A DNA stretch of 50,684 bases from Thermomonas sp. (GTDB lineage Bacteria; Pseudomonadota; Gammaproteobacteria; Xanthomonadales; Xanthomonadaceae). Made by a program: the position numbers and the translations under genes. Positions within the stretch are counted from its first letter, which is position 1, and the number at the start of each line of letters is the position of its first letter. The DNA is taken from positions 1-50,684 of the forward strand of contig NZ_JAHRWW010000009.1 in assembly GCF_019104945.1 (NCBI RefSeq), in the 5' to 3' direction. The notes beneath the pieces were generated by a model that was not told the origin of the DNA, ran no database searches, and worked only from the letters and a program-made list of their open reading frames with translations. Below, one piece after another: positions 27,975 to 40,358 of the stretch.

Positions 27975-29233
27975 AAATCCACGACATTATCCGCCGAGAC
28001 AATTTGCTCCAAACGAATTTTATTGGCAAACAGCGAGAACGCCAGCATTCCGGCCAGCCCATTGGCCCGCGCCACCCATGCGGGCATCCAGCGCGGTTCT
28101 TTCAATGCGCCGCAGTCAAACAGCGGCTCAAAGCGCTGCACGTCGGCTAATGTCATTTTGCCTGCAAACAGCAGCCGACACAGGCGTAATTTGCCGTGCT
28201 TGAGCGCCCAGCGGAAAAACGTATGCACACCAATCAGCCCGCGCAGATATACGGTGTCTTTGGTAAATGCCAGACCACCGGTTGTGGGTACGCCGCGAAA
28301 CACACGCTGCGCCGACGTAAAACTTTCCACTTCATTCTGTCCGGACATTAGAAAGTAACGAAACACTTGAATGAAATCAGCGCCTTCAAGCGCCATGGCC
28401 ACTGCTTCAATACGCAGGCTCACGCGCTTCATGCGTTCAATATCAATACTGCCAGTGATTTGCTCAGCAAACACCGCCAAGCCTTCTTGAGTGGCGGTGA
28501 TCCGCGGTGATGAGAGTGCAAGACTCGGCAAGTTGCTTTGTTGCTGGCCATTGAGCGCTGTCAACGAATGCACAAACGCTTCGTGTTGCAGCAATTGCTG
28601 CATGTCGTAATCAGAAAACGCCGCGCGTGAGCGCAACCGAATGCGTGTGGCCCCAGCCGCCGCCTTGGCGATGAGATTTGGGTCTAACTCCACCGAGATG
28701 ACACGCGCGTCAAAAAAATCATCGAGCTCAGCCTGCAGTTGCAGCGCCAGTGCAGTAGCCGAAATTTCAACTTGTTCAGAAGGAGCTAGCAGCTCGTGAT
28801 CCAACTCGTCGGCCACCATCAAAAAATGATTGGCCGCTTCCCGTGTGGTAGCGCCGCCGGGGAGCGCGTGATCCGGGGTTCCGAACAGTGCGATGGATAA
28901 GTCCGTGACTTGCCGTGTACCTAGGTTTTCCAACAGCTCGGCAGCCAGCACCCAGCCCTGCGCGGATTCGATGAGATACTGCCCCAGCGGATGCTCGGAA
29001 TCTGCAGCGGCGGCAATTGCCACCAATTCGCGGCGCGCATCAGAAAAATCATGCTTGGGGTATTCAAAGCAAGGTAGCGTCGGGTTTCCCTTGGCCCAGC
29101 CTGATAAAAACCGCTGCTGTTCGCTTGCTGGCCAGCTCACCAAGCTCAATAGCTTGATCGGTTTTGCAGCCTTCGCCATTCGCGCATCCAGCGCCGCATG
29201 GTGTGCAATAGCATTCACATCAGCGCTTGCCAT
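27971..29233 (-). CDS. QEGLA-motif protein (DUF1704, MATCAP-like putative metallopeptidase)
   Basis: A 420-residue soluble protein of the family called 'flavohemoglobin expression-modulating QEGLA motif protein'. It has HEAFVHSLTALNG (an HExxxH zinc-type motif) and TQEGLAVFAEQ about 35 residues later, supplying the family name and a likely third ligand Glu. ELDDFFDARVISVELDP and TKDTVYLRGLIGVHTFFRWA are also typical. Eukaryotic members are tyrosine carboxypeptidases acting on tubulin, so a peptidase role here is likely, but the substrate is unknown. Start at 29233 (MASADVNAIAHH); it overlaps the end of rsgA by 14 bases, so they form an operon. Confidence 0.88.
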   Translation of the reverse strand: MASADVNAIAHHAALDARMAKAAKPIKLLSLVSWPASEQQRFLSGWAKGNPTLPCFEYPKHDFSDARRELVAIAAAADSEHPLGQYLIESAQGWVLAAELLENLGTRQVTDLSIALFGTPDHALPGGATTREAANHFLMVADELDHELLAPSEQVEISATALALQLQAELDDFFDARVISVELDPNLIAKAAAGATRIRLRSRAAFSDYDMQQLLQHEAFVHSLTALNGQQQSNLPSLALSSPRITATQEGLAVFAEQITGSIDIERMKRVSLRIEAVAMALEGADFIQVFRYFLMSGQNEVESFTSAQRVFRGVPTTGGLAFTKDTVYLRGLIGVHTFFRWALKHGKLRLCRLLFAGKMTLADVQRFEPLFDCGALKEPRWMPAWVARANGLAGMLAFSLFANKIRLEQIVSADNVVDF

Positions 29234-30320
29234 ATTTCTCTCCAAGCCGCTTGCCCAGCGCCTTGGACTGTACGCGCGATTGCGCCTTTTCCGCCAGCCG
29301 CGTTGCAAGGCGATCCGCTGCCCCGGCTACTTCATCACTCAACTTGAGAAAGTTCTCCACGCGCCCGGCATCAATTGCGCCCGCGTCTACGGCTGCACGC
29401 ACCGCACAGCCCGGTTCTTTAACATGTTTGCAGTCGCGAAAACGGCACTGCTGCGCCAGCGCTTCAATATCGGCAAAGCTTTCTGCCACATCTTCTTCAC
29501 CCGTGGGTTTCAGCTCACGCATTCCCGGCGTATCGATAATGCAAGCGCCCGACGGCAGTGCAATCAGCGCACGGTGGGTGGTGGTGTGGCGGCCGCGTGC
29601 GTCGTGCTCGCGCACGGCACCTGTTTTCATTTTTTCCACGCCCAGTAGGGTGTTGGTTAGCGTTGATTTGCCCGCGCCAGAACTCCCTACCAACACAACA
29701 CTTTGCCCCGCACCAAGCCACGGCTCCAGCGCAGTGGCCGCCTGCGTGTCTTTGGCATTAAGCGCCATAACGGGAACACCCAACGTGTGCAGTGCTACCA
29801 ATGCCTCATTCACTTCGGCAGCGTTTTTATCGGACTTCGTCAACACCACCACAGGTTGCACGCCGCTGCCTGCCACCAGCAACAGATAACGTTCAATACG
29901 GCGCGGATTGAAATCGCCATCCAAGCCGCTCACCACAAACACCGTGTCGATATTGGCGGCAATGACCTGCTGCCGGTAATGCTCCCCAGCCGCACCGCGT
30001 TTGATTGCAGAAAAACGTGGCAGCAACGCCACGATACGCAGCGCATTGGGCGCTTCGCCTTCTACCAACACCCAGTCGCCCACCGCAGGCCGCGCCTCTG
30101 GGTTTACCTCCCCCTTGCGATAACTTCCCGCACGCTGCCATTCCGGTAGCGACTCCGCCGGGTGAACCATATCAATCATTTCAGACACCCGATATCCGCT
30201 GCGGTGCTGCTCAACAATGCGTGCAGGGCGTGCTTGGGGGTACGCGGCCATCAACGCCGACCAAGCAGGCGGCAACGCATGCAAAGGCCAATGCCAGCCA
30301 ATGGCAGAAAGGTGAATCAT
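29220..30320 (-). CDS. rsgA: Ribosome small subunit-dependent GTPase A
   Basis: A 366-residue circularly permuted GTPase that checks and matures the 30S ribosomal subunit. The OB-fold (ARPAVGDWVLVEGE) is followed by the permuted motifs: G4 VLTKSDK, G1 VLVGSSGAGKSTLTNTLLG, the GRHTTTHR switch, G3 IDTPGMREL. A C-terminal zinc site of the CxxxxCxHxxxxxC type follows (QCRFRDCKHVKEPGC). The basic C terminus contacts rRNA. The N terminus (about 50 residues before the OB-fold) is longer than in E. coli. It is first in a two-gene operon with the QEGLA protein. Confidence 0.95.
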   Translation of the reverse strand: MIHLSAIGWHWPLHALPPAWSALMAAYPQARPARIVEQHRSGYRVSEMIDMVHPAESLPEWQRAGSYRKGEVNPEARPAVGDWVLVEGEAPNALRIVALLPRFSAIKRGAAGEHYRQQVIAANIDTVFVVSGLDGDFNPRRIERYLLLVAGSGVQPVVVLTKSDKNAAEVNEALVALHTLGVPVMALNAKDTQAATALEPWLGAGQSVVLVGSSGAGKSTLTNTLLGVEKMKTGAVREHDARGRHTTTHRALIALPSGACIIDTPGMRELKPTGEEDVAESFADIEALAQQCRFRDCKHVKEPGCAVRAAVDAGAIDAGRVENFLKLSDEVAGAADRLATRLAEKAQSRVQSKALGKRLGEKYGKR

Positions 30321-30389
30321 GAAGAAAAATCAAGTGTCATCGTGGGGATTTTAATGCCCAAAGGCTCCTTGTAACACCAGCCCATAGAG

Positions 30390-30701
30390 CTATCCCGTAG
30401 CCTCTTCCGTATCAAACTGAAGTTGGTCTAGCGCCAAGCGGCGTTGTCTGCTGCTCGCCGCACGATAGGCGCTCAAAAACTGACGCTCTGCCTCATTCCC
30501 ACACCCAGTAGCAAGCCAATGAATATCGACGCCGGTAACAGCTGCAATCTCAATGAGATGCACAGCACTAGGCGTGACATTGCCCGCTCCCTCCCAATTA
30601 CCAACTGCCCCTCTCCCAACACCTAGAGCTTTCGCAAGCTCGGCTTGCGTCATTTTCATTTGCATGCGCGCACGACGAATGCGCGTACCTATCGACTCCA
30701 T
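30390..30701 (-). CDS. XRE-family helix-turn-helix regulator
   Basis: A 103-residue DNA-binding protein. The HTH (residues about 4-60) shows IGTRIRRARMQMKMTQAELAKALGVGRGAVGNWE and then GNVTPSAVHLIEIAAVTGVDIHWLATG, in parts, a Cro/CI-type fold. The C-terminal 35 residues are a charged helix (ERQFLSAYRAASSRQRRLALDQL). Start: Met at 30701, preceded by GGTGGAGAAG; the frame stays open 15 codons upstream without support. It is divergent from the peptide-export operon, with 198 bases between starts that contain repeated sequence, so it is the likely repressor or activator of that operon. Confidence 0.88.
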   Translation of the reverse strand: MESIGTRIRRARMQMKMTQAELAKALGVGRGAVGNWEGAGNVTPSAVHLIEIAAVTGVDIHWLATGCGNEAERQFLSAYRAASSRQRRLALDQLQFDTEEATG

Positions 30702-30750
30702 GTCTTCTCCACCCCTGTGCGTGCCCGCCCCCGTGCCAACAATCAAATTT

Positions 30751-30828
30751 GCTCAGCAATATTGGCATTGTCGCATGAGACATAGCTCGCATGAGCAACT
30801 TGGGTCACTTGTAAGCAATATTGAGCAC
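30751..30828. promoter_or_regulatory. Repeat-rich putative operator region of the peptide operon
   Basis: In the gap between the XRE gene and the HlyD gene, AGCAATATTG occurs at 30755-30764 and 30814-30823. The first copy is preceded by GCTC and the second followed by AGCA, so the outer parts are inverted (GCTCA ... TGAGC). CGCATGAG is directly repeated at 30772-30779 and 30788-30795, 16 bases apart. Such repeats are what an XRE regulator would recognise. Confidence 0.45.
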
Positions 30829-30836
30829 GTACAGGT

Positions 30837-30866
30837 TTGATTTTCTCAATTTTTCTAAATTATATT
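30837..30866 (+). promoter_or_regulatory. Possible sigma70 promoter of the peptide operon
   Basis: TTGATT at 30837-30842 and TATATT at 30861-30866 are 18 bases apart in a very AT-rich stretch 34 bases before the HlyD start and next to the repeats. This is a sequence match only. Confidence 0.4.
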
Positions 30867-30899
30867 CCGCAACCATTCACATAATGGCAAAAATTTGTC

Positions 30900-32162
30900 G
30901 TGTCCAAACTCTTTCGCAAGGAAGCACTTGAAGCCAAGCGCGGCAGCTGGTTAGGCGCCATTTCACTGGCGCAGCCGCTGTCGCTCTGGGTCATGACGGC
31001 ATTTGCCGCTAGCGCTGCCCTTGCCATTGGCTTGTTCTTGTCTTTTGGAAACTACACCCGCCGCTCCACGGTGGCGGGGCAGTTAGTGCCCGCGAAGGGT
31101 TTGGCCACGGTGTTAGCACCTGCCACGGGCGTGGTGACACAGCTAAACAGCACAGAGGGTGTTGTGGTGCAGAGCAACCAAGTGCTTGCAGTGGTCAGCC
31201 TGCCACGCGCCACGCTTAGCGAAGGTGACACCGCTACCGCCATGGCGCAGCGCCTCGCTCGCCGCGAGCAAAGCCTGCAAGACACCCATCAAGCGCAAGG
31301 GCAGTTGCTGGAAGTACAAACCAACAGCTTATCTAGGCAGCTGGCCGCTGCTCAGCACGAGCTGAAACAACTGGAACAAGAAATCAGCACCCGGCAGCAG
31401 CAGGTGCATATTGCCGAAGAAACCTTGCAGCGCCTGCGCCAGCTACAGGCCGATAAATACGTCAGCGCGGTGCAAGTTAACCAACAAGAAGCCGCATGGC
31501 TGCAAGCCATCAGCGATGTGCAGGCCATGCAGCGCCAAGCCACCAGCGCCCGCCGCAGCCTGACCCAACTGCAACAAGCCAAGGCGGAACTGCCGGGCCA
31601 GCGCCTCGCCAATGAGGCCGACTTCCAGCGTGACCTCGCCACCTTAGAACAAGAGCAAGTAGAAACCAGTGCGCGTGGCGCACTGGCGGTCAACGCCCCT
31701 GTTACTGGCGTTATCGCCACACAACTCATCAAACCCGGCCAAGCCGTGCAGGCAGGCCAGCCGCTATTCACCTTACTACCGGGTAATGGAACGCTGGAAG
31801 CAGAACTCCTTGTGCCTAGCCGCGCCATTGGTTTCATTGAACCCGGCGACAAGGTGCTGTTGCGCTATCAAGCCTACCCATACCAAAAATTCGGCCATCA
31901 CCAAGGCACGGTAGCGCGCATCAGCCGCAGCACCTTGAACCAAGGCGAACTGCAAACCCTGCTAGGCAGCGCCGCGCAAAGCGAACCGCTGTACCGAGTG
32001 ACGGTGCGTCTCGCCCAACAAGCCATTACCGCCTACGGCAAGCCCGAACAACTGAAACCGGGAATGCTGCTAGAAGCCGATGTGCTGGGCGAGAAGCGCA
32101 AGTTAATCGAATGGGTGTTTGAACCGTTGTATTCGCTCAAGGGGAAGGTGGGTGGTGGTTGA
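30900..32162 (+). CDS. HlyD-family periplasmic adaptor of a peptide exporter
   Basis: A 420-residue membrane-fusion protein linking the C39 ABC transporter to an outer-membrane channel (none is encoded here; a TolC elsewhere is presumed). A short basic cytoplasmic N terminus is followed by one helix (residues about 30-50, VMTAFAASAALAIGLFLSFG). Then come the beta-barrel/lipoyl half (TVAGQLVPAKGLATVLAPATGVV), about 170 residues of coiled coil, the returning lipoyl half (VNAPVTGVIATQLIKPGQAVQAGQPLF) and the C-terminal beta domain. Start is GTG at 30900, giving MSKLFRKEALEAKRGSWLG, the usual beginning for this family, but with no clear ribosome site. Composition is like the host, unlike the maturase genes that follow. 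Confidence 0.92.
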   Translation: MSKLFRKEALEAKRGSWLGAISLAQPLSLWVMTAFAASAALAIGLFLSFGNYTRRSTVAGQLVPAKGLATVLAPATGVVTQLNSTEGVVVQSNQVLAVVSLPRATLSEGDTATAMAQRLARREQSLQDTHQAQGQLLEVQTNSLSRQLAAAQHELKQLEQEISTRQQQVHIAEETLQRLRQLQADKYVSAVQVNQQEAAWLQAISDVQAMQRQATSARRSLTQLQQAKAELPGQRLANEADFQRDLATLEQEQVETSARGALAVNAPVTGVIATQLIKPGQAVQAGQPLFTLLPGNGTLEAELLVPSRAIGFIEPGDKVLLRYQAYPYQKFGHHQGTVARISRSTLNQGELQTLLGSAAQSEPLYRVTVRLAQQAITAYGKPEQLKPGMLLEADVLGEKRKLIEWVFEPLYSLKGKVGGG

Positions 32163-32246
32163 TCTTCACTGGGGCAAAGAATTGCCGGGTGTGTCTCGGC
32201 CCTACGGCGCGGGGTTTCGTGTCTATCAGTAACTAGGAGAAACGCA

Positions 32247-32387
32247 ATGGAAGAGCTTTCAATTGATGAAGTTATTGTGGTAGCCGGTGGCATGGCTGCT
32301 GTTCATGAAACAATGGTTGTTACTAGCGATGGCCCTTGCAGTGGCTCATCGCATCGAGACCCATCTAAGTGTGATGCGGAAAAATAA
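32247..32387 (+). CDS. Putative precursor peptide with Gly-Gly leader (RiPP/bacteriocin-like)
   Basis: A 46-residue peptide. ATG at 32247 has an ideal ribosome site (AGGAGA, 6 bases upstream). The leader MEELSIDEVIVVAGG follows the double-glycine pattern (E-L-S-x-x-E-[VI]-x-x-V-x-G-G) cut by C39 peptidases. The 31-residue core, from Met16, reads MAAVHETMVVT at its start, then SDGPCSGSSHRDPSKCDAEK. It has two Cys (31 and 42), five Ser, three Thr, and Asp/Glu/Lys residues that an ATP-grasp ligase could join as esters or amides. It sits 84 bases after the HlyD gene and upstream of a SPASM protein, an ATP-grasp ligase and a C39-ABC transporter. A disulfide-bonded microcin-like peptide is the alternative. 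I do not recognise the core as any known family. Confidence 0.85.
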   Translation: MEELSIDEVIVVAGGMAAVHETMVVTSDGPCSGSSHRDPSKCDAEK

Positions 32388-32397
32388 TTGAAGAAAC

Positions 32398-32428
32398 AGG
32401 GGGAGGGATAACACCCCCCCCTTTTTTT
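32398..32428 (+). terminator. Terminator or attenuator after the precursor gene
   Basis: AGGGGGAGGG, a short AT-rich spacer and C8 are followed by T7 (32422-32428), 11 bases after the precursor stop. The G-run and C-run can pair (for example AGGGGG with CCCCCT). As the maturase genes follow in the same direction, it may act as a partial terminator that keeps precursor message in excess. Confidence 0.65.
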
Positions 32429-32469
32429 AATATCTAATTACGTTGGTGCGGTTTCAGGAAGGTAAAAAT

Positions 32470-33462
32470 ATGCTCACTCCTAAATATCGATTGGGAAATC
32501 AAGTGATCTTGGTGAGTGGAAAGTACGCAGCGGCGTTATATGATTTTGCGGGTGGGAGAATTCAAAGAATTTCCGCAGGGATGGGGAACCTATTGGCTGA
32601 TGATTGCCTTGGCCTAAACAGAAGTTTAAGTAAAAAAAATATTTTGGTAATGCAGCTAAGTAGAGCACTTACTGAGCGAAAATTTCTAGAAGAATGCATA
32701 GGTAATGCATATGAAAATTACTCTTTCGATCATGTTCACCCAAGATTTCCGCCACTAAGAACAATTTCATTCCATATTGGACCCAAAACAACCTTCGATG
32801 ATTTGAATAAGGCGGAGCACATAATTCACGATGCAATTTCAAAACTTAGCTTAGGAAGTTTTGCATTTTTGATTTGCGATGAATCTAATATGGTTGCTGA
32901 AATCGAGGGAATAGCTGAGCGTATACTTAATGAGTTTCAGTTCTCTTTATGTGAATTCTGGTGTGATGGCAACAAAGCGACGAGATCGACCAGATGCAGC
33001 AAGGTAAAGAAAAAGTATAGGGACAGAGTACTGATTGCCGACATTAAAAATTCGAAATATGCTTCAGCTGGAATTACGGAAGATAGTGACAGGCTAGTTT
33101 GGCCTTGCAGTTCAAAAATTGATCCATCTATGTTTATTTGCAGGCCAGATTATTATCATCTGTTGAAAAATTATAGCGAATCCTACGGGTGTATTCACTT
33201 TGATTCCGAGTGGAATATTTTTCCTGATGTTTCTGATCTCGGATATTGCATAGGTGGATTTGATGAGTTTTTAACAATTGAGGAAGTAGTAGTAGATAAA
33301 AGATTAATTGAGTACTGGAGGTTTAGTAAGGACAAAAGGGGGAAGTGTCAAGATTGTGAATTTAGGTACGCTTGCCCTAATCCGTTATCGAGAAGGATGG
33401 GTACAGGGCTAGCAAGTCAGCCCTCAAATTGTGATTACGACATTGAGCGAGGCACTTGGTGA
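32470..33462 (+). CDS. SPASM-domain peptide maturase of grasp-with-spasm type, without radical SAM motif
   Basis: A 330-residue protein. Cysteines follow the SPASM [4Fe-4S] layout in the C-terminal third: Cys241 (YGCIHFDSEWNIFPD), Cys260 (LGYCIGGF), then Cys293-xx-Cys296-x5-Cys302 (GKCQDCEFRYACP) and Cys321. The KDKRGKCQDCEFRYACP segment is what I know from 'grasp-with-spasm' maturases of Bacteroidetes. The N terminus (KYAAALYDFAGGRIQRIS) is also of that kind. A canonical CxxxCxxC radical SAM motif is absent; CEFWC at 161-165 is not followed by a Cys at the right spacing. It may recruit or position the peptide or be a true but divergent enzyme. Start at 32470 is chosen for the AGGAAGG site; a TTG at 32443 is open but unsupported. 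AT-rich. Its stop overlaps the ATP-grasp start (GTGA). Confidence 0.82.
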   Translation: MLTPKYRLGNQVILVSGKYAAALYDFAGGRIQRISAGMGNLLADDCLGLNRSLSKKNILVMQLSRALTERKFLEECIGNAYENYSFDHVHPRFPPLRTISFHIGPKTTFDDLNKAEHIIHDAISKLSLGSFAFLICDESNMVAEIEGIAERILNEFQFSLCEFWCDGNKATRSTRCSKVKKKYRDRVLIADIKNSKYASAGITEDSDRLVWPCSSKIDPSMFICRPDYYHLLKNYSESYGCIHFDSEWNIFPDVSDLGYCIGGFDEFLTIEEVVVDKRLIEYWRFSKDKRGKCQDCEFRYACPNPLSRRMGTGLASQPSNCDYDIERGTW

Positions 33463-34439
33463 AAAAGCCGATTATTGTTCTTTTATCTGAAAATTCCGAC
33501 TTGAATTTTCACTTAATTCGGCATGTTTTGCAGCACCGAAGAATTCCATTTTTACATATTGACCCAACTGTCAAAAATAGAAACTATGATTTTAATCTAA
33601 TCACAGAGTGTGACGGAGTGCGCGTTCGCGAAGAGATTTTAGATTTACGTATGAGTCGATATAATTTGGCTGGTGTACGAGCAGTATGGAATCGGGGGGC
33701 TGCATATTCAGGAGGAGAACGCACCAACTCTAGAACCTCTGAGAACCTTGTTTATCACGAGTCCGTATATGCCTATGAATATATCTGGTGGTTGCTGCGC
33801 CATAGTGAGTGGGTTAATCCATTACTCGATTGTCGAGCTTCTCGAAATAGACTTATTCAGTGTAAGGTGGCAGCAAGCTGCGGAATGTATGTCCCAAAAC
33901 AAATTGTCTCTACAAAAGGCATAGATATTGCAGAGTTTTCGCGTTCTGGGGGGAGGCATATAATTAAGTGCATATCGCAAGGCAGTCCGCATGAGGTGGG
34001 GCCACATGCTCTTAAGACCGAGTATTTCAGAGAGGAGAGTGCTCGCAAATATTCTAATGAACGCCTTTCTGCTCCAGTAATGCTACAAGGTTATTTGGAA
34101 AAAGATCATGAACTTCGAGCGGTGGTAGTTGGAGATAATGTTTTTGCTGCGGCAATTGATTCCCCTAAACACGAGGCTACTGCACTTGATAGTAGACTCT
34201 GGAGAGAGGCTGGCCTTAGTTATTATAGAGTAAAGTTAAATGATTCGGAATCAAGCCGTCTCGTTAAAATAAATTCAGAGCTTGGCTTGAGATATTCTTC
34301 GATGGATCTTGTAAGAGGCAGGGATGGCCTACTCTACTTTCTCGAAGCAAACCCTTCAGGGCAATGGAGCTTTATTGAAATGCAAACCGGCTTCTCAATT
34401 ACGGAAAAAATAGTAAACCTTCTTGCGGGTGAAAAATGA
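33459..34439 (+). CDS. ATP-grasp peptide ligase (graspetide synthetase-like)
   Basis: A 326-residue ATP-grasp enzyme of the MvdD/PsnB type, which activates Asp/Glu side chains with ATP and joins them to Ser/Thr or Lys side chains of a precursor peptide. Visible markers are the nucleotide-binding region RHIIKCISQG (Lys170), DHELRAVVVGDNVFAAAID (Arg220), and the metal-binding run YSSMDLVRGRDGLLYFLEANPSGQWSFIE (Asp283, Glu296, Asn298; quoted in two parts by position 279-307). The ExNPxGQW sequence is diagnostic of this peptide-modifying branch rather than RimK or D-Ala ligases. The N-terminal 120 residues (RAVWNRG, EYIWWLLRH) match the MvdD pre-ATP-grasp domain. Start GTG at 33459, overlapping the SPASM gene by four bases. 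AT-rich composition. Confidence 0.9.
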   Translation: MKKPIIVLLSENSDLNFHLIRHVLQHRRIPFLHIDPTVKNRNYDFNLITECDGVRVREEILDLRMSRYNLAGVRAVWNRGAAYSGGERTNSRTSENLVYHESVYAYEYIWWLLRHSEWVNPLLDCRASRNRLIQCKVAASCGMYVPKQIVSTKGIDIAEFSRSGGRHIIKCISQGSPHEVGPHALKTEYFREESARKYSNERLSAPVMLQGYLEKDHELRAVVVGDNVFAAAIDSPKHEATALDSRLWREAGLSYYRVKLNDSESSRLVKINSELGLRYSSMDLVRGRDGLLYFLEANPSGQWSFIEMQTGFSITEKIVNLLAGEK

Positions 34440-34618
34440 GGATTGAACTAAAAGGGGTGGCGCTAATTGAAGACTATGGGAACGAAAAATTAATGCCCAT
34501 CCAAGAGCAAAATAAAATGGATGAGTGTCGAGTCTTGCAAGCATATAAGGGGTTTTGCACGCTCTACCCGCTTTTCGTGCCAGAAAAGCAGAGACAGGAG
34601 AGTGCAGATGGCTATTAA
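34436..34618 (+). CDS. Possible small coupled gene, unknown
   Basis: A 60-codon frame whose ATG overlaps the ATP-grasp stop (ATGA, 34436-34439) and whose end overlaps the next gene by 11 bases. The peptide (MRIELKGVALIEDYGNEKLM, then a Cys-containing middle and a polar end) has no Gly-Gly leader, signal peptide or known motif. The exact overlap spacing supports translation; the lack of any family and the overlap at its 3' end argue for caution. It could be a remnant, a second substrate or an immunity peptide. Confidence 0.35.
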   Translation: MRIELKGVALIEDYGNEKLMPIQEQNKMDECRVLQAYKGFCTLYPLFVPEKQRQESADGY

Positions 34619-35912
34619 CTACTGCAGGAGCTTACTACTCTGGCTTGTCGCGGGAATTTGTTTGATTCCTTGTGCTAGTTTCGGTGGCATGAAAGATATG
34701 GAGGAGGAATGCGTAACTGAATCGTGCCTAATGCCAAAACTCCAGGTATTTCCAATTAATATGCAATCCTATTTGCAGGTCAAAGATTCTTTCAGTCATG
34801 GCTTCAGGCCAGAGGAAGCGAGCCGTTCTTTTCGAGAAAATTTTGCCACCGTAGCAAGCTTTGCTGGTGATTATGGAGCGGCTAATCGCTTTTATCCGTT
34901 ACCTGAATTGAATAAAGATCCATTGGGGCATGGGTACTCACATGCAGTGCCGGCTGCCAAAGTAGTGCGCATGCTGGCAAAAGATAGACGTGCCGTTTTC
35001 ATAAATGAAGCTCACGCAGTTGCACGGACTCGCGCCGCTATTTATACGCTACTCCGTCCTTTGCGCGAGGAAGGGTATAGCTACCTGGCGCTTGAGGGGC
35101 TCACTACATATCCCGTGGATAAAGAAAAAAACTGTGCAAATTCCTTACTTAACGACCCTCGCTTACCCACTCGTGGCTATGCTACTGGCGGGACAGGTTT
35201 TTATTTAAATGAACCCATTTTTGGGGAAATAATTCGAGAGGCATTGCGCCTTAAATTTAAGCTGGTAGCTTATGAGGATGCATCGGATTCTGATGATGGC
35301 CTAGAGGCGCGCGAGCAAAGACAGGCTGAAAATATTGCTTGTATTTTCAAGGCGGACAAAGAGGCTAAAATCATGGTGATCGCTGGATTTGGGCATATCG
35401 CTAAAAATCCAGTCGGTGCCGTGCATGGGGGAATGATGGCTGCACGCTTTAAGGCTATGACTGGAATCGATCCGCTTACCGTAGATACTACAAAGCTGCT
35501 GCGAGCGCGCACTTACGGTTTTCATTTCGATGGTCAAGATGTAGAAAAATATCCTTCGCAAGGTTATGCGTTGAGCGACTCTAAAGGGAGATTTTTCGGT
35601 TCGGTCGACTACGATTTGATGCTGCTTTTTCCGGATACCCCTGAAAGAGGCGAGCCTGGCACTTCGTGGCTTGAGCTAGATGGTGCACGACAAGATTCGC
35701 TTGTCTCTGCGGGTGGTTGCATGAATATATGGCCCTGTTTGATTCAAGCATTTCCACAGGAAGAGGTGTCTGGCATTCCTGCAGACGGCTGTGTAATAGA
35801 AAGAAGTCAAGACACCTGCCACCTGTTTTTACCAAAGGGAGTGTTTGGCATAAAGTATTTCAACAGATTAATCAATGGGATACAAAGCGATACGATTTCT
35901 ATTGACCCATAA
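34608..35912 (+). CDS. Exported EreA/ChaN-superfamily protein in the peptide cluster
   Basis: A 434-residue protein with an N-terminal signal peptide (MAINYCRSLLLWLVAGICLI, cleavage near residue 22-27; a Cys at 22 is not in a standard lipobox). The body carries the set of motifs of the erythromycin-esterase/ChaN/TIKI superfamily: INEAHAVARTR (Glu134, His136), SYLALEGL (Glu163), KLVAYED (Glu223), REQRQAENI (235-243) and IAGFGHI (His263). Members use Glu/His for hydrolysis or metal/haem binding. In this locus a periplasmic enzyme acting on the peptide (trimming, or self-protection) is possible; that is inference. Start at 34608 has an AGGAG site and leads straight into the signal peptide. AT-rich like the maturases; its last 170 residues are not recognised. 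Confidence 0.78.
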   Translation: MAINYCRSLLLWLVAGICLIPCASFGGMKDMEEECVTESCLMPKLQVFPINMQSYLQVKDSFSHGFRPEEASRSFRENFATVASFAGDYGAANRFYPLPELNKDPLGHGYSHAVPAAKVVRMLAKDRRAVFINEAHAVARTRAAIYTLLRPLREEGYSYLALEGLTTYPVDKEKNCANSLLNDPRLPTRGYATGGTGFYLNEPIFGEIIREALRLKFKLVAYEDASDSDDGLEAREQRQAENIACIFKADKEAKIMVIAGFGHIAKNPVGAVHGGMMAARFKAMTGIDPLTVDTTKLLRARTYGFHFDGQDVEKYPSQGYALSDSKGRFFGSVDYDLMLLFPDTPERGEPGTSWLELDGARQDSLVSAGGCMNIWPCLIQAFPQEEVSGIPADGCVIERSQDTCHLFLPKGVFGIKYFNRLINGIQSDTISIDP

Positions 35913-35948
35913 TATTGATTACTCGAGAAACAATTTAGGTCTTGCTTT

Positions 35949-38051
35949 ATGAGCGTGCTGACCCAATCCGAATCCGCCGAATGCGGTCTCGCCTCACTCG
36001 CGATGGTGGCAGGCGCGCACGGTCTGCGGTTGTCGCTGGCCGAACTGCGTCAGCGTTTTCCGCTGTCACTTAAAGGGGCCAAGCTCAACCAACTCATCCA
36101 TATTGCCCAATCGCTGGGCTTCCAGACCCGCCCGCTGCGGTTGGATATGGAGGATTTGGGCAAACTCCAATTGCCTTGCATCCTGCATTGGGACTTCAAC
36201 CACTTCGTGGTGCTGACCAAGGTCGGTAAATCCAAAGTCACGCTTCTTGACCCTGCGATCGGTGAGCGCAGGCTCTCGTTGTCTGAAGTTTCTGACCACT
36301 TCACCGGTGTGGCGTTAGAGCTAACGCCCAGTCACGCATTCAAGCCGCGTAAAGCCGCACCTACCATTTCAGTGCGCCAATTGACCGGGCGCATCACCGG
36401 TCTGTGGCGGACGCTGGCACAGCTTCTGCTGCTGTCACTGGCCTTGCAAGTGTTCGTGGTGTTGGCCCCATTCTTCATGCAATGGGTGGTGGATCAGGTC
36501 TTGATCTCCGCCGACAAGAACTTATTGACAGTGCTGGGGCTGGGCTTCGGGTTGGCGCTGCTGTTGCAGATCGGTATCGGCCTGCTGCGCGGCTGGTCGG
36601 TGGTGTATCTGTCGTCCCGGTTGGGTCTGCAATGGATGGGCAATGTGTTTGCCCATGCGCTGCGGCTACCGCTGGAGTTTTTCGAGAAACGCCATTTGGG
36701 CGATATCACCTCACGCATGGCCTCGGTGCAGGCGATTCAGCGCACCTTGACCACGAGCTTTGTCGAAGCTCTGATTGATGGCTTGATGGCGGTGGTGACG
36801 TTTGGCCTGATGCTGGTCTATAGCTGGAAGCTGGCGCTGGTCACGCTACTGGCGGTGGCTCTGTACGCCGGTATCCGTCTTGTGGCGTACCGGCCCTTAC
36901 GCGATGGCACCGAAAAGCAATTGGTTGCTGCGGCCAAACAACAAACCCACTTATTGGAATCGCTGCGCGGCATGCAGAGCGTCAAGGTGGCCGGTGCAGA
37001 AGGGTTGCGCCGTTCCACCTACGACAATCTGATGGTGGACACCGTCAACCAAGACGTGCGCATCGCCCAGATGGGGTTGGGTTTTAATAGCGCCAGCCAA
37101 CTGGTGTTTGGGGTTGAGCGCATCGCCGTGATCTGGATCGGCGCGCTGCTGGCGCTGCAAAACGTGTTTTCGGTGGGCATGCTGATTGCTTTTTTGGCCT
37201 ACAAAGACCAGTTTGCCCAGCGTATGGGGGCATTGATCGACAAAGGCATCGAGTTCCGCATGCTGCGCCTGCACGGAGAACGCTTGGCCGACATTGTGCT
37301 AACGCCGCCAGAGGACGCAGAGCTACGGCCGGAGCTGCCCGCGCCGGAGGAGGCGTCTATCGAAGTGGAGAGCCTCGGTTTTCGCTATGCCGACGGTGAG
37401 CCTTGGGTGCTCAAGGGGCTGAGTTTTCAGATTGAAGCAGGCGACGCCGTGGCTATTGTGGGGGCGTCGGGGTGCGGCAAGACCACCTTGGTCAAACTCT
37501 TGCTGGGGCTGCTCAAACCCAATGAAGGCAGCATCCGCATCGGCGGACACGATTTGCATAAAACAGGCCCAGCCAATCTGCGCAAAATCGTAGGGGCGGT
37601 GATGCAAGATGACCAGCTATTCGGTGGCAGCCTTGCCGACAACATCAGCTTCTTCGATCCCCAAGTAGACCAAGCGCGGGTGGAACAGGCGGCGCGCATG
37701 GCGGCCATTCACGACGAAATTACAACAATGCCAATGGGCTACCACAGCCTGATTGGCGATATGGGCAGCAGCCTGTCCGGCGGGCAAAAGCAGCGGGTGA
37801 TCTTGGCGCGGGCGCTGTACAGAAACCCCAAGCTGTTATTCCTTGACGAAGCCACCAGCCACTTGGATGTTGCTAATGAGCACCTTGTTAATGCGGCGGT
37901 GAAGCAGTTAGAGGTGACCAAGGTGATCGTGGCGCACCGGCCCGAGACCATTGCCAGTGCCGACCGCGTGCTGGTGATGCAAGGTGGGAAGATCGTGCAG
38001 GATGTTCGGCAGAATACGGCGGATCAAAATTCAGAAGAATTAGCTGCGTAA
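35949..38051 (+). CDS. Peptidase-containing ABC transporter (C39, PCAT/bacteriocin exporter)
   Basis: A 700-residue inner-membrane exporter that cuts Gly-Gly leaders and exports the core. The N-terminal C39 peptidase has the oxyanion Gln6 and catalytic Cys12 in TQSESAECGLASLAMV, His85 in DFNHFVVL and Asp101 in LLDPAIG, so all catalytic residues are present. Six helices lie at about 150-430. The ATPase has Walker A GASGCGKTTLVK, Q-loop VMQDDQLFGG, signature LSGGQKQRV, Walker B LLFLDEATSHLD and an H-loop VAHRPE. The N terminus begins only six residues before the Gln, slightly shorter than usual; an in-frame stop just upstream rules out a longer start. Composition is host-like again after the AT-rich maturase genes. 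Confidence 0.95.
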   Translation: MSVLTQSESAECGLASLAMVAGAHGLRLSLAELRQRFPLSLKGAKLNQLIHIAQSLGFQTRPLRLDMEDLGKLQLPCILHWDFNHFVVLTKVGKSKVTLLDPAIGERRLSLSEVSDHFTGVALELTPSHAFKPRKAAPTISVRQLTGRITGLWRTLAQLLLLSLALQVFVVLAPFFMQWVVDQVLISADKNLLTVLGLGFGLALLLQIGIGLLRGWSVVYLSSRLGLQWMGNVFAHALRLPLEFFEKRHLGDITSRMASVQAIQRTLTTSFVEALIDGLMAVVTFGLMLVYSWKLALVTLLAVALYAGIRLVAYRPLRDGTEKQLVAAAKQQTHLLESLRGMQSVKVAGAEGLRRSTYDNLMVDTVNQDVRIAQMGLGFNSASQLVFGVERIAVIWIGALLALQNVFSVGMLIAFLAYKDQFAQRMGALIDKGIEFRMLRLHGERLADIVLTPPEDAELRPELPAPEEASIEVESLGFRYADGEPWVLKGLSFQIEAGDAVAIVGASGCGKTTLVKLLLGLLKPNEGSIRIGGHDLHKTGPANLRKIVGAVMQDDQLFGGSLADNISFFDPQVDQARVEQAARMAAIHDEITTMPMGYHSLIGDMGSSLSGGQKQRVILARALYRNPKLLFLDEATSHLDVANEHLVNAAVKQLEVTKVIVAHRPETIASADRVLVMQGGKIVQDVRQNTADQNSEELAA

Positions 38052-38104
38052 CCCAGTGTTTTTCCGCTAGTCTTAAACACCCTGCTATCAATCATTCTGC
38101 TCCA

Positions 38105-39361
38105 ATGCCTTCCTACAACCCCCGCAATAAAATCGCCACCCGCTCCCGCCTCACCGAGGTTCGCTATGAAATTCGCGGGGAGTTGGCACGGCGAGCGCGT
38201 GAGTTGGAGGGGCAAGGGCGCAAGCTCATTAAGCTGAATATCGGCAACCCCGGTGCGTTCGGGTTTCGTGCACCCGAGCACCTGCAAGACGCCATCGCTG
38301 GGCGCATTGCCAACACCGACCCATACACTCATCAGCAGGGTTTGCCCGAAGCACGCGAGGCAATTGCGGCATTTCACAAGCAACGCGGCACGCCCAACGC
38401 GGCACCAGAGCGTGTATTTGTGGGCAACGGGGTCAGTGAACTGATTGATATTTCCCTGCGCGCCCTGCTAAACCCCGGTGAGGAAGTGCTGGTACCGTCT
38501 CCAGACTATCCACTGTGGTCGGCGGCCACTATTTTGAACGACGGCCGCCCGGTGTATTACAAATGCGACCGTGACAACGGCTTCCTGCCTGATCCCGAGC
38601 AGATCGAATCGCTGGTGTCCTCGCGTACCCGTGCGATCGTGCTGATCAACCCAAACAACCCCACTGGCGCCAACTACCCGCGCGCACTGCTAGAGCGCAT
38701 TGTCGAAATTGCGCAGCGTTATCGCCTACTGCTATTGGTGGATGAAATTTACGATGGCATTTTGTATGACGACGCTAAGTTCCAGCCGGTGGCTCCCTTG
38801 GCAGGCGATCTGCCTTGCATGAGCTTCGGCGGGCTTTCGAAAGTACACCGCGCCTGCGGCTGGCGCGTGGGCTGGGCGGTATTGAGTGGTGACCCACTAG
38901 CCTGCGGCGACTACCACCACGCGCTTGATCTACTCGGCGCGCTCCGCCTGTGCGCCAATGTGCCCGGGCAATTTGCCATTGAACAAGCACTGCACGGCAC
39001 CGACACCATTAGCACACTCACTGCCCCCGGCGGGCGCTTGTATGAAACCCGTCGCGCCCTGATCGAAAGCTGTGCCAGCAGCGAACACTTATCCTTGGCA
39101 CCGCCCGTCGGTGCGCTGTACGGCTTCCCGCGCGTGGTCGGTGCGGCTGCGCGAGACTTCGACGACCACGCATTCGCGCTGGAAATGCTGGAGCAGGAAG
39201 ACGTGTTGATCGTCCCCGGCACCAGCTTCAACGTGCCCTACCGCGACCACTTTCGGGTTACGCTGCTGCCCGAAGCCGAAATGCTACGGGAAGTCTTCGT
39301 CCGTATCGACCGGGTTCTCGCCCGCCGTGCCGAAGCCAAGCCACGTAGCGCAGTGGCTTGA
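38105..39361 (+). CDS. alaA: Alanine-type PLP aminotransferase, AlaA-like
   Basis: A 418-residue class I aminotransferase. Markers: KLNIGNPGAFGFRAPEHL, YTHQQGLPEAREAIA, FVGNGVSELIDISLRALL, PSPDYPLWSAA, LINPNNPTGANYPRALL, LVDEIYDGILYDDAKF, and the PLP lysine in FGGLSKVHRACGWRVGW (Lys246, with a His where AlaA of E. coli has a Tyr). The early Arg/Glu pattern (RYEIRGELARRARELE) is the AlaA/YfbQ form, which makes alanine from pyruvate and glutamate. It lies 53 bases after the transporter gene, but its composition and wide conservation make it a resident gene outside the peptide cluster. Confidence 0.9.
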   Translation: MPSYNPRNKIATRSRLTEVRYEIRGELARRARELEGQGRKLIKLNIGNPGAFGFRAPEHLQDAIAGRIANTDPYTHQQGLPEAREAIAAFHKQRGTPNAAPERVFVGNGVSELIDISLRALLNPGEEVLVPSPDYPLWSAATILNDGRPVYYKCDRDNGFLPDPEQIESLVSSRTRAIVLINPNNPTGANYPRALLERIVEIAQRYRLLLLVDEIYDGILYDDAKFQPVAPLAGDLPCMSFGGLSKVHRACGWRVGWAVLSGDPLACGDYHHALDLLGALRLCANVPGQFAIEQALHGTDTISTLTAPGGRLYETRRALIESCASSEHLSLAPPVGALYGFPRVVGAAARDFDDHAFALEMLEQEDVLIVPGTSFNVPYRDHFRVTLLPEAEMLREVFVRIDRVLARRAEAKPRSAVA

Positions 39362-39434
39362 CTCCGGTCAGCCTCCTGCCAGAGTCAACAGCGTAGAATG
39401 GCGGTTCTCTTCATTTGTTTTTGGAAGCTCCGCC

Positions 39435-40358
39435 ATGTCGCTTGACCCCGCCCTGCGCGCTCGCATTGAATCCGTCCTCTCCGCCAACCACGTCGTGCTA
39501 TTCCTGAAAGGTACGCCGGACGCACCGCAGTGCGGCTTCTCGGGTAAGGCTGTGGCCGCTCTAGACACCACGGGTGCCACCTATGGGCACGTCAACGTGC
39601 TGGCCGACCCGGAAATTCGTGAAGGCATCAAAATTTATGGCGACTGGCCGACCATTCCGCAGTTGTATATCGGTGGCGAGCTGGTGGGTGGTGCCGATAT
39701 CATTTCGCAAATGGCCGGCAGCGGCGAGCTGCACACCGCATTGGGATTGCCTGCACCCGACCGCACCCCGCCGAGTATCACCATCACCCCGGCCGCCGCG
39801 GACATGCTGAAATCCGCGCTTGCCAACGCCGGCGACGACTACGCGCTGCAAATTGAAATTGATCGCGGTTTCAATGCCCGCCTGCAGTTGGCCCCGAAAG
39901 ATGACAACGCCATCATCAGCGAATCTGCGGGCATCCGCGCCCAGTTCGATCTGGTCAGCGCCCAGCGTGGCCGCGGCATGACCATCGACTGGGCCGACGA
40001 CGCACGCGGTAAAGGTTTGATCATTGATAACCCCAATGCACCGCCGAAAGTCGGCACGCTGACCCCGGCGCAGGCGCAGACGCAGGTCAACGAAGGCAAG
40101 CTCACGATTGTTGATGTGCGCCCGGCTGAAGAGCGTGCACTGGCACAGATCCCCGTGCCCAGCCGCAACTTCGATGACGGCGTGGAAGAACTTGAAGCGC
40201 TGCCGAAAGACACCGCGCTGGCCTTCCTCTGCCAAGCCGGTGGGCGCAGTCAGCAAGCCGCCGAGCACTTCCGCGCACTCGGTTTCAGCAAGGTGTTCAA
40301 TATCGCCGGTGGCACCAACGCTTGGGCCGATATTGATTCATCGGTGGCGCGCTACTAA
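39435..40358 (+). CDS. grxD: Monothiol glutaredoxin Grx4 fused to an A-type-like domain and a rhodanese domain
   Basis: A 307-residue, three-domain cytosolic protein. Residues 1-108 are a monothiol glutaredoxin with the CGFS active site (Cys33), LKGTP and WPTIPQLYIGGELVGG, the type that binds and passes [2Fe-2S] clusters. Residues about 115-205 resemble an A-type (IscA/ErpA) carrier (ITITPAAADMLKSAL ... GLIIDNPNAP) but contain none of the three cluster-binding Cys. Residues 215-307 are a rhodanese (IVDVRPAEERALA ... AFLCQAGGRSQQAAEHF, active Cys266). The fusion suggests Fe-S assembly or repair with sulfur transfer. Start at 39435 (MSLDPALRAR); the upstream open frame overlaps the aminotransferase and is not used. 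Confidence 0.9.
   Translation: MSLDPALRARIESVLSANHVVLFLKGTPDAPQCGFSGKAVAALDTTGATYGHVNVLADPEIREGIKIYGDWPTIPQLYIGGELVGGADIISQMAGSGELHTALGLPAPDRTPPSITITPAAADMLKSALANAGDDYALQIEIDRGFNARLQLAPKDDNAIISESAGIRAQFDLVSAQRGRGMTIDWADDARGKGLIIDNPNAPPKVGTLTPAQAQTQVNEGKLTIVDVRPAEERALAQIPVPSRNFDDGVEELEALPKDTALAFLCQAGGRSQQAAEHFRALGFSKVFNIAGGTNAWADIDSSVARY

Follow-up and report, generated by a model that had tools for sequence, protein, structure and literature searches.

What can a SPASM protein contribute to peptide maturation when its radical S-adenosylmethionine (radical-SAM) site is missing? The question is raised by positions 30390-38051 of the 50,684-nucleotide Thermomonas contig NZ_JAHRWW010000009.1 (the window), which belongs to a 2.69-Mb draft genome. 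Judged from its sequence, this region is an intact, divergent locus for a graspetide, a ribosomally synthesised and post-translationally modified peptide (RiPP), in which the ATP-grasp ligase is paired with a SPASM protein. We consider it fairly probable that a foreign SPASM-paired graspetide cassette occupies the payload slot of an export locus, with the SPASM protein serving as an adaptor, the ATP-grasp performing the chemistry and a C39 transporter exporting the product. An earlier reading of this DNA (the original prediction) had proposed a modified, exported peptide, and the gene content supports a graspetide-type RiPP locus with export.

The CX3CX2C motif of radical-SAM enzymes is absent from the SPASM protein of the window, both in its sequence and in the alignment, and at motif level this partner is without a radical-SAM site. 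Among 11 aligned SPASM proteins 11 columns are invariant, including the four cysteines of one CX2CX5C...C set (11/11). When contigs from 84,980 species were scanned with the SPASM alignment, 35 loci were found, and a class-wide profile search of 369 genomes added two (L066 and L067). Nine of these 37 loci have an ATP-grasp match and none of the nine has CX3CX2C; among the 28 loci without an ATP-grasp match the motif is present in 22, L066 and L067 included. All 12 distinct proteins scoring above the cut-off of the grasp-with-spasm SPASM model TIGR04193 also lack CX3CX2C and keep the SPASM CX2CX5C motif. They come from 247 genomes of the phylum of a Chryseobacterium genome (G581) and five further genomes; L175 was judged on a 284-residue frame, and L178, L185 and L187 (no assignable open reading frame, ORF) and L191 (the second piece of the L179 place) were left out. 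The sets of nine and 12 overlap, L097 and L166 being the same Tannerella protein and the genomes of L092 and L096 having been sampled again. Of 16 weaker TIGR04193 matches, five longer ones are without the motif, eight whose match is confined to the SPASM end possess it, and three offer no readable frame. The NCBIfam authors may themselves have noted the missing radical-SAM site of TIGR04193 proteins. No close homologue of the window protein was found in the congener scan, the contig-wide scan or the class-wide search of 369 genomes, and a sequence search of the PDB with the SPASM alignment brought up nothing relevant.

The N-terminal domain of the SPASM protein was aligned with PqqD by hhalign at E 4.3e-5, with a probability of 69% and a score of 27.7 (six controls scored at most 10.4), and Foldseek compared the model of the protein with PDB structures, finding SuiB (E 8.6e-4), TigE and the leader-binding TbiB1 (probability 1.00 at E 0.014). 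We regard a PqqD-like, leader-binding fold at this N-terminus as fairly likely, and because CX3CX2C is missing and the N-terminus looks PqqD-like, the SPASM partner would be an adaptor, not a radical enzyme. Several observations count against such a reading. The hhalign match is 48 columns long, with an E-value that applies to a single comparison; the window model has an only fair mean confidence (pLDDT 66.6); and the better model of the Tannerella SPASM protein (pLDDT 85.5) had no PqqD-like or RiPP recognition element structure among the 50 matches listed and no PDB match at E<=0.001. The Pfam PqqD model did not match the window protein and reached E 0.017 in one relative, and six of the 28 SPASM loci without an ATP-grasp match are also without CX3CX2C, some of them on short or partial frames.

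Alternatively, the SPASM protein could be a second maturase in its own right, forming for example a thioether on cysteine, either with a radical-SAM partner in trans or by some unknown Fe-S chemistry. The pairing of SPASM proteins with ATP-grasps across phyla, the invariant Fe-S cysteine set and the two cysteines of the window core would suit this role, and PMC8939145, whose section 7 counts the protein paired with these ATP-grasps among the SPASM radical-SAM enzymes, treats the family as such and mentions possible thioethers with conserved cysteines. However, CX3CX2C is missing from all ten ATP-grasp-paired proteins (that of the window included) and from the 12 above-cut-off TIGR04193 proteins, and no radical-SAM protein occurs among the seven locus proteins scanned, a scan that did not extend to neighbouring genes or to other parts of the genome. 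We hold this second-maturase reading to be rather unlikely; a radical-SAM enzyme acting in trans would also speak against an adaptor. By its sequence the SPASM partner probably does not act as a radical-SAM enzyme on its own; the motif data make it unlikely that the partner listed in section 7 of PMC8939145 is such an enzyme alone, and a puzzling pair thereby becomes a testable adaptor-ligase complex with a small third component. In two related loci the SPASM partner is fused to an HExxH metalloprotease-like region (HEVVH or HEIIH; L070, 7248-9179, and L069, 7185-11411), and in L069 the same open frame runs on into ABC-transporter domains (Pfam ABC_membrane and ABC_tran).

The genes and sites of the locus are as follows.

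30390-30701, minus strand: XRE-family regulator (HTH_3, E 2.3e-11), divergent from the HlyD gene; its ORF opens at TTG 30746 and the first ATG is at 30701.
30900-32162, plus strand: HlyD-type periplasmic adaptor, a platform gene (HlyD_3, E 1.9e-22; GC 0.595, GC at third codon positions, GC3, 0.66).
32163-32246, plus strand: stretch 5' of the precursor, resembling the same stretch in the congener G204 (blastn).
32247-32387, plus strand: candidate precursor peptide of 46 residues with leader MEELSIDEVIVVAGG and core MAAVHETMVVTSDGPCSGSSHRDPSKCDAEK, the core having two Cys and several Ser/Thr/Lys and Asp/Glu; ranked first of 2005 frames by the leader profile.
32399-32428, plus strand: terminator-like hairpin with a T-run (RNA fold), a possible attenuator between the precursor and the maturase genes.
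32470-33462, plus strand: SPASM partner of 330 residues, with a putative PqqD-like N-terminus, a reduced barrel region and SPASM CX2CX5C...C, without CX3CX2C.
33459-34439, plus strand: predicted graspetide-type ATP-grasp ligase with a GTG start (TIGR04187, E 4.2e-39; MvdC, E 4.9e-37).
34436-34618, plus strand: 60-residue ORF, ATGA-coupled to the ATP-grasp, in the position that "LPL" small proteins have in Bacteroidota loci.
34608-35912, plus strand: putatively exported protein of the ChaN/EreA superfamily with an NEAH...RTR motif (PF04187 in relatives), a candidate immunity or tailoring protein.
35949-38051, plus strand: C39-peptidase ABC exporter, a platform gene (Peptidase_C39, E 6.3e-36; GC 0.583, GC3 0.72).

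By ORF, NCBIfam and Pfam analysis, all genes named in the original prediction (HlyD, the 46-residue Gly-Gly peptide, SPASM, ATP-grasp, EreA/ChaN-like and C39-ABC) lie where it had put them, and the divergent XRE regulator was recovered on the minus strand. The overlap of the maturase genes that it described exists as GTGA at 33459-33462, formed by the SPASM stop and the ATP-grasp GTG start, but its gene list was incomplete: the overlooked 60-residue ORF overlaps the ATP-grasp stop (ATGA) at its 5' end and the start of the EreA-like gene at its 3' end. The SPASM assignment holds for the last ~60 residues, the only ones that match SPASM models, with the radical-SAM motif absent and the start corrected to ATG 32470, and the EreA/ChaN assignment holds through relatives (PF04187 matches three of the four aligned members, best E 4.3e-5), the own match of the window protein being weak (E 0.21). 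The catalytic residues claimed for the transporter are borne out by the Cys, His and Asp motifs QSESAECG, HWDFNHF and LLDP, which we take to be those of the C39 triad. The hairpin folds at -22.5 kcal/mol (z -3.08; one of 200 shuffles of region 32385-32450 was equally good). No outer-membrane channel was found among the seven locus proteins scanned with NCBIfam and Pfam models. Rfam gave nothing useful for RNA families over 29000-40000, nor did Pfam and PADLOC for the SPASM and EreA-like proteins or PADLOC for the small protein, and the PADLOC matches on the XRE regulator look like generic HTH.

Such a locus could be decayed or silent, its genes persisting while no peptide is made, and the lack of a SPASM match in seven of seven sampled congeners together with the failure to find a close SPASM homologue would be in keeping with this. 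On the other side, none of the frames is interrupted, an AGGAG ribosome site stands before the precursor, the couplings are kept and the catalytic motifs are present; we regard decay as quite improbable.

The third component is suggested by a recurrent position. All 10 SPASM-paired loci (about nine independent cases, L077 and L081 being near-identical) have an ATG ORF of 57-104 residues that begins 3-22 bases ahead of the end of the ATP-grasp stop codon. Such an ORF is seen at one of 78 control ORFs of the same loci, which are mechanical ORFs of at least 250 residues and not proven genes, and at none of 20 unpaired ATP-grasps, all from the family of the window (20 of 21 counted, L019 being unresolved). 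Its place is that of the "LPL" small proteins in Bacteroidota loci, the sequences being hardly alike. In the window, L068 and L098 the SPASM gene precedes the ATP-grasp, which is the opposite of the Bacteroidota order, yet the small ORF is still found 3' of the ATP-grasp. That it stays with the ATP-grasp in the reversed order makes the small coupled protein, if produced, a probable partner of the ligase and not of the SPASM protein. A PqqD-like role was suggested for the small proteins in the part of PMC8939145 that deals with them, with an interaction with the ATP-grasp left possible, and the reversed gene order bears on this open question of the small-protein partner. Two points weaken the argument: the limits of size and distance were set after the loci had been seen, and no shared sequence family was found among the small proteins, which align poorly. 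By eye, only the pair from L069 and L070 shows a resemblance, and some of the small proteins contain a Y-F-[KR]-D-like string.

Is this, then, a grasp-with-spasm locus, as the original prediction had it? Two features of its architecture agree with this, a stand-alone SPASM protein lacking the radical-SAM site beside a peptide ATP-grasp, and a short Gly-Gly precursor. Membership according to the curated NCBIfam models was rejected: the SPASM protein reaches 33.9 bits with TIGR04193 (cut-off 175), matching over the C-terminal 62 residues, and the ATP-grasp reaches 72.2 bits with TIGR04192 (cut-off 230). When the model search proposed with that prediction was run, both maturation proteins thus matched below their cut-offs, and C39 and HlyD matched clearly; the C39 peptidase-ABC protein, HlyD and a substrate with a Gly-Gly leader together make up a C39 double-glycine exporter. 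The Tannerella positive control passed with both proteins (SPASM 196.3 bits, ATP-grasp 287.4 bits), while in the Chryseobacterium control the ATP-grasp passed (257.6 bits) and the SPASM protein did not (126.9 bits), and so the TIGR04193 cut-off is strict. The ATP-grasp of the window scores higher with TIGR04187 (134.6 bits) and MvdC (127.7 bits), both also below the curated cut-offs, and it matches the microviridin ligases 7m4s (AMdnB, E 1.6e-24) and 5ig8 (E 2.3e-20) in PDB, by which it is a predicted graspetide ligase related to MvdC/MdnB. The microviridin ligases MdnB, MdnC and MvdC (7m4s, 5ig8) belong to the same ATP-grasp fold family; the window differs from them in its precursor, its SPASM partner and its small partner.

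In a tree of 24 ATP-grasps (seven of 31 sequences, L011, L014, L015, L016, L019, L020 and L025, were dropped for a wrong frame or an over-long ORF), the window, L068 and L098 form a separate Lysobacterales clade with support of 100/99, L098 on a long branch, and five Bacteroidota sequences form another (99/100). A single origin of all SPASM-paired ATP-grasps, with support of 50/80, is neither demonstrated nor rejected. Bacteroidota are the known home of SPASM-paired ATP-grasps according to the relevant part of PMC8939145, in agreement with the original prediction that such maturase pairs occur mainly in Bacteroidetes. The loci there (TIGR04192 with TIGR04193; branch 5 of PMC8939145) resemble that of the window in combining an ATP-grasp, a stand-alone SPASM protein without CX3CX2C, a small ORF after the ATP-grasp and a small precursor. 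The same kinds of genes, the same small third ORF and the low GC could accordingly reflect a grasp-with-spasm locus that merely diverged after direct transfer from Bacteroidota. Scores below both cut-offs, the better fit of the ATP-grasp to TIGR04187 and MvdC than to TIGR04192, the separate clade (with L098 on its long branch) and the SPASM-first gene order do not favour such a transfer, and the window differs further in its Lysobacteraceae HlyD/C39 platform and its ChaN/EreA-like gene; we hold this origin to be unlikely. In the pages of PMC13097080 on graspetide groups, group 14 is described as SPASM-associated. In the open-licence literature we found no report of SPASM-paired graspetide loci in Lysobacterales, of the missing radical-SAM motif, or of the phrase grasp-with-spasm.

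The two other loci of the Lysobacterales clade are made up as follows. L068 (Lysobacterales PRO2) holds HlyD, ABC, a Gly-Gly precursor, SPASM and ATP-grasp, and the order in L098 is small ORF, SPASM, ATP-grasp, two FtsX-like permeases and C39-ABC. At 9279-14040 of L098 (the same place as L055), a DsbA-like and two FtsX/MacB-like genes, names which we presume from the sequence, stand by the C39-ABC gene and replace the EreA-like gene.

Where does the cassette sit? In two congeners, G200 and G204, the XRE, HlyD and C39-ABC genes have the same order as in the window, with other content between HlyD and ABC. HlyD is 80% identical in G200 and 64% in G204, ABC 91% and about 79-80%, and the XRE match, divergent upstream of HlyD, 50% and 49%; blastn homology between the window and the G204 locus (L064) extends ~50 bp past the HlyD stop. 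In G204 the slot encodes a small membrane protein and two peptides rich in glycine, whose sites are Gly-Gly or Gly-Ser; in G200 it encodes a pair of Gly-Gly peptides together with an M16-like protease and a CPBP-like membrane protein, these protein names being our assumption from the sequences. HlyD is matched at E<=1e-70 in 51 of 198 genomes of the family, the own genome included. A platform set was made of 40 of the 57 non-window HlyD places together with L063, L064 and L068. ABC is present in 40 of these 43 loci and lies downstream of HlyD in 35, with a slot of at least 300 bp in 24 of the 35. Slot content is highly variable, with L128/L134, L140/L143 and L125/L150 as look-alike pairs among the 32 of 43 loci inspected, and an ATP-grasp match occurs in six of the 43 (L068, L141, L157, L158, L159 and L160). 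In 22 of 25 loci, a set that includes the window, the slot has a lower GC than the platform (median difference -0.108, uncorrected for kinship and non-coding DNA; two loci with slots below 300 bp were dropped, and the count covers neither other short-slot loci nor those with reversed order or without ABC).

The precursor ties the cassette to this platform. A leader profile of 13 columns was built from 20 leaders of other genomes, chosen by eye from 14 platform loci (L063, L064, L128, L130, L133-L136, L139, L140, L142, L145, L146 and L150), others among the matches being left out, as in L126, L141 and L143. When all start-to-stop frames of 28-120 residues in the whole window were scored, nested starts being counted apart, the precursor leader came first of 2005 with 31.6 bits, which is far above chance, as the next frame has 14.8 bits and the best of 20 shuffled windows 18.1. 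Since the leader fits the exporter platform, the cassette is best read, on its sequence features, as the payload of an exchangeable Lysobacteraceae export platform consisting of XRE, HlyD, Gly-Gly leader, slot and C39-ABC. The original prediction had noticed neither this platform, to which HlyD, C39-ABC and the leader belong and which carries other peptides in relatives, nor the lack of the radical-SAM site. Against payload exchange in its simplest form stands the low GC of the leader itself (0.44); what was imported was therefore probably not the core alone but the core with a leader of platform type. The original prediction would have suffered had homologous loci consistently been without the small peptide. 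A small ORF was seen by eye 5' of the maturase genes in all four related loci (L068, L055/L098, L054/L070 and L069); the double-glycine site is Gly-Gly in L068 alone and Gly-Ala in L098, and, unfavourably for our reading, the candidates of L070 and L069 show no clear Gly-Gly site by eye. The platform is of the same exporter and leader type as class II microcin or Gly-Gly bacteriocin export, for which PMC13174018 describes, in the part concerned, putative class II microcins of Xanthomonas, and Gly-Gly peptides lie in the slot of relatives; the difference is that the payload of the window is predicted to be enzymatically modified. This gives a mining rule: the interval from HlyD to C39-ABC can be searched with the known leader for new payloads. 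In L142 (4448-4588, oriented), a platform leader MRELNLEETIAVAGG is followed by a Thr-rich core with two cysteines and by a 267-residue ORF, with no ATP-grasp match, which makes it a further payload of unusual kind.

The cassette is apparently acquired. The HlyD and ABC blocks on either side have a GC of 0.54-0.61, which drops to 0.37-0.48 between 32.4 and 36.0 kb, the payload having 43% compared with 59% for HlyD and ABC together, and GC3 is 0.66 in HlyD and 0.72 in ABC, 0.32-0.41 in the precursor, SPASM, ATP-grasp and EreA-like genes and 0.49 in the 60-residue ORF. An orthologue-level ABC match occurs within the genus (25 genomes, the own included) only in G200 (91%) and G204 (79%). The locus is flanked by rsgA and an aminotransferase gene, 7.8 kb apart in the window. 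Among the 21 other congeners with both genes on one contig, 19 have an empty site, the ends of the two matches lying 117-378 bp apart (three further congeners could not be judged; the window stretch compared was 30320-38105). The remaining two (G209 and G167; L119 and L120) carry an unrelated insert of ~3.3 kb, by eye a sensor-type gene, and the idea that this site is a hot spot for peptide loci was dropped on this account. The original inference of a transferred or divergent version is supported by the low payload GC and by the seven sampled congeners without a SPASM match; an origin inside the Bacteroidota clade is not supported by the tree.

We suppose that the locus works as follows. The hairpin would attenuate read-through into the maturase genes, keeping the 46-residue precursor in excess over the enzymes. 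The PqqD-like N-terminus of the SPASM protein would bind the leader; its Fe-S SPASM end would be structural, because the radical-SAM site is gone, and the protein would present the core to the ATP-grasp, supported by the small coupled partner. The ATP-grasp would then join Ser/Thr/Lys to Asp/Glu side chains, forming ester or amide rings, each with a loss of 18 Da. The C39 domain would cut after AGG, the core leaving through HlyD and a channel encoded elsewhere, and a disulfide may join the two core cysteines. Self-protection or the last tailoring step would most likely fall to the exported ChaN/EreA-like protein. Partner-dependent graspetide synthesis has a precedent in rosaritide (MirB/MirC), for which the relevant section of PMC13097080 describes a synthetase that needs a partner protein, though the partner there is of the PpiC-type peptidyl-prolyl isomerase kind and no SPASM protein. 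More tentatively, and with somewhat more doubt than belief, we extend this to the whole group: the grasp-with-spasm "SPASM maturase" could be an Fe-S PqqD-like adaptor which, with the small coupled protein, licenses a graspetide ligase on exporter-set Gly-Gly leaders, making the chemistry an exchangeable payload for bacteriocin-export loci.

For the EreA-like protein, immunity or last tailoring is our guess. It has a signal-like N-terminus by eye and a conserved E-x-H...R motif, and E134, H136, R142 and E163 are invariant in the four aligned members, with NEAH in the window and DENH in one member; neither the protein nor its alignment found a relevant sequence in the PDB. Ten of 198 genomes of the family, the own included, have a homologue. 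The gene is not specific to RiPP loci, this idea having been ruled out by six neighbourhoods (L113-L118; G127 and G172 were left out) with no match to the ATP-grasp, SPASM, HlyD or ABC of the window. In its part on gammaproteobacterial graspetides, PMC8939145 reports an erythromycin-esterase homologue beside the graspetide genes, for which it proposes a part in modification or in resistance. The branch-4 loci concerned (cluster 575) resemble that of the window in having an ATP-grasp, a C39 transporter and an EreA-like protein together; they differ in that the same part of PMC8939145 names no SPASM protein for branch 4, and none was matched in L157. This last locus, from G089, is the only one of the 43 platform loci with an EreA-like match, and it has an ATP-grasp: the EreA-like gene is divergent from an HlyD/ATP-grasp/C39-ABC platform, which makes it a second pairing of EreA and graspetide genes in the family.

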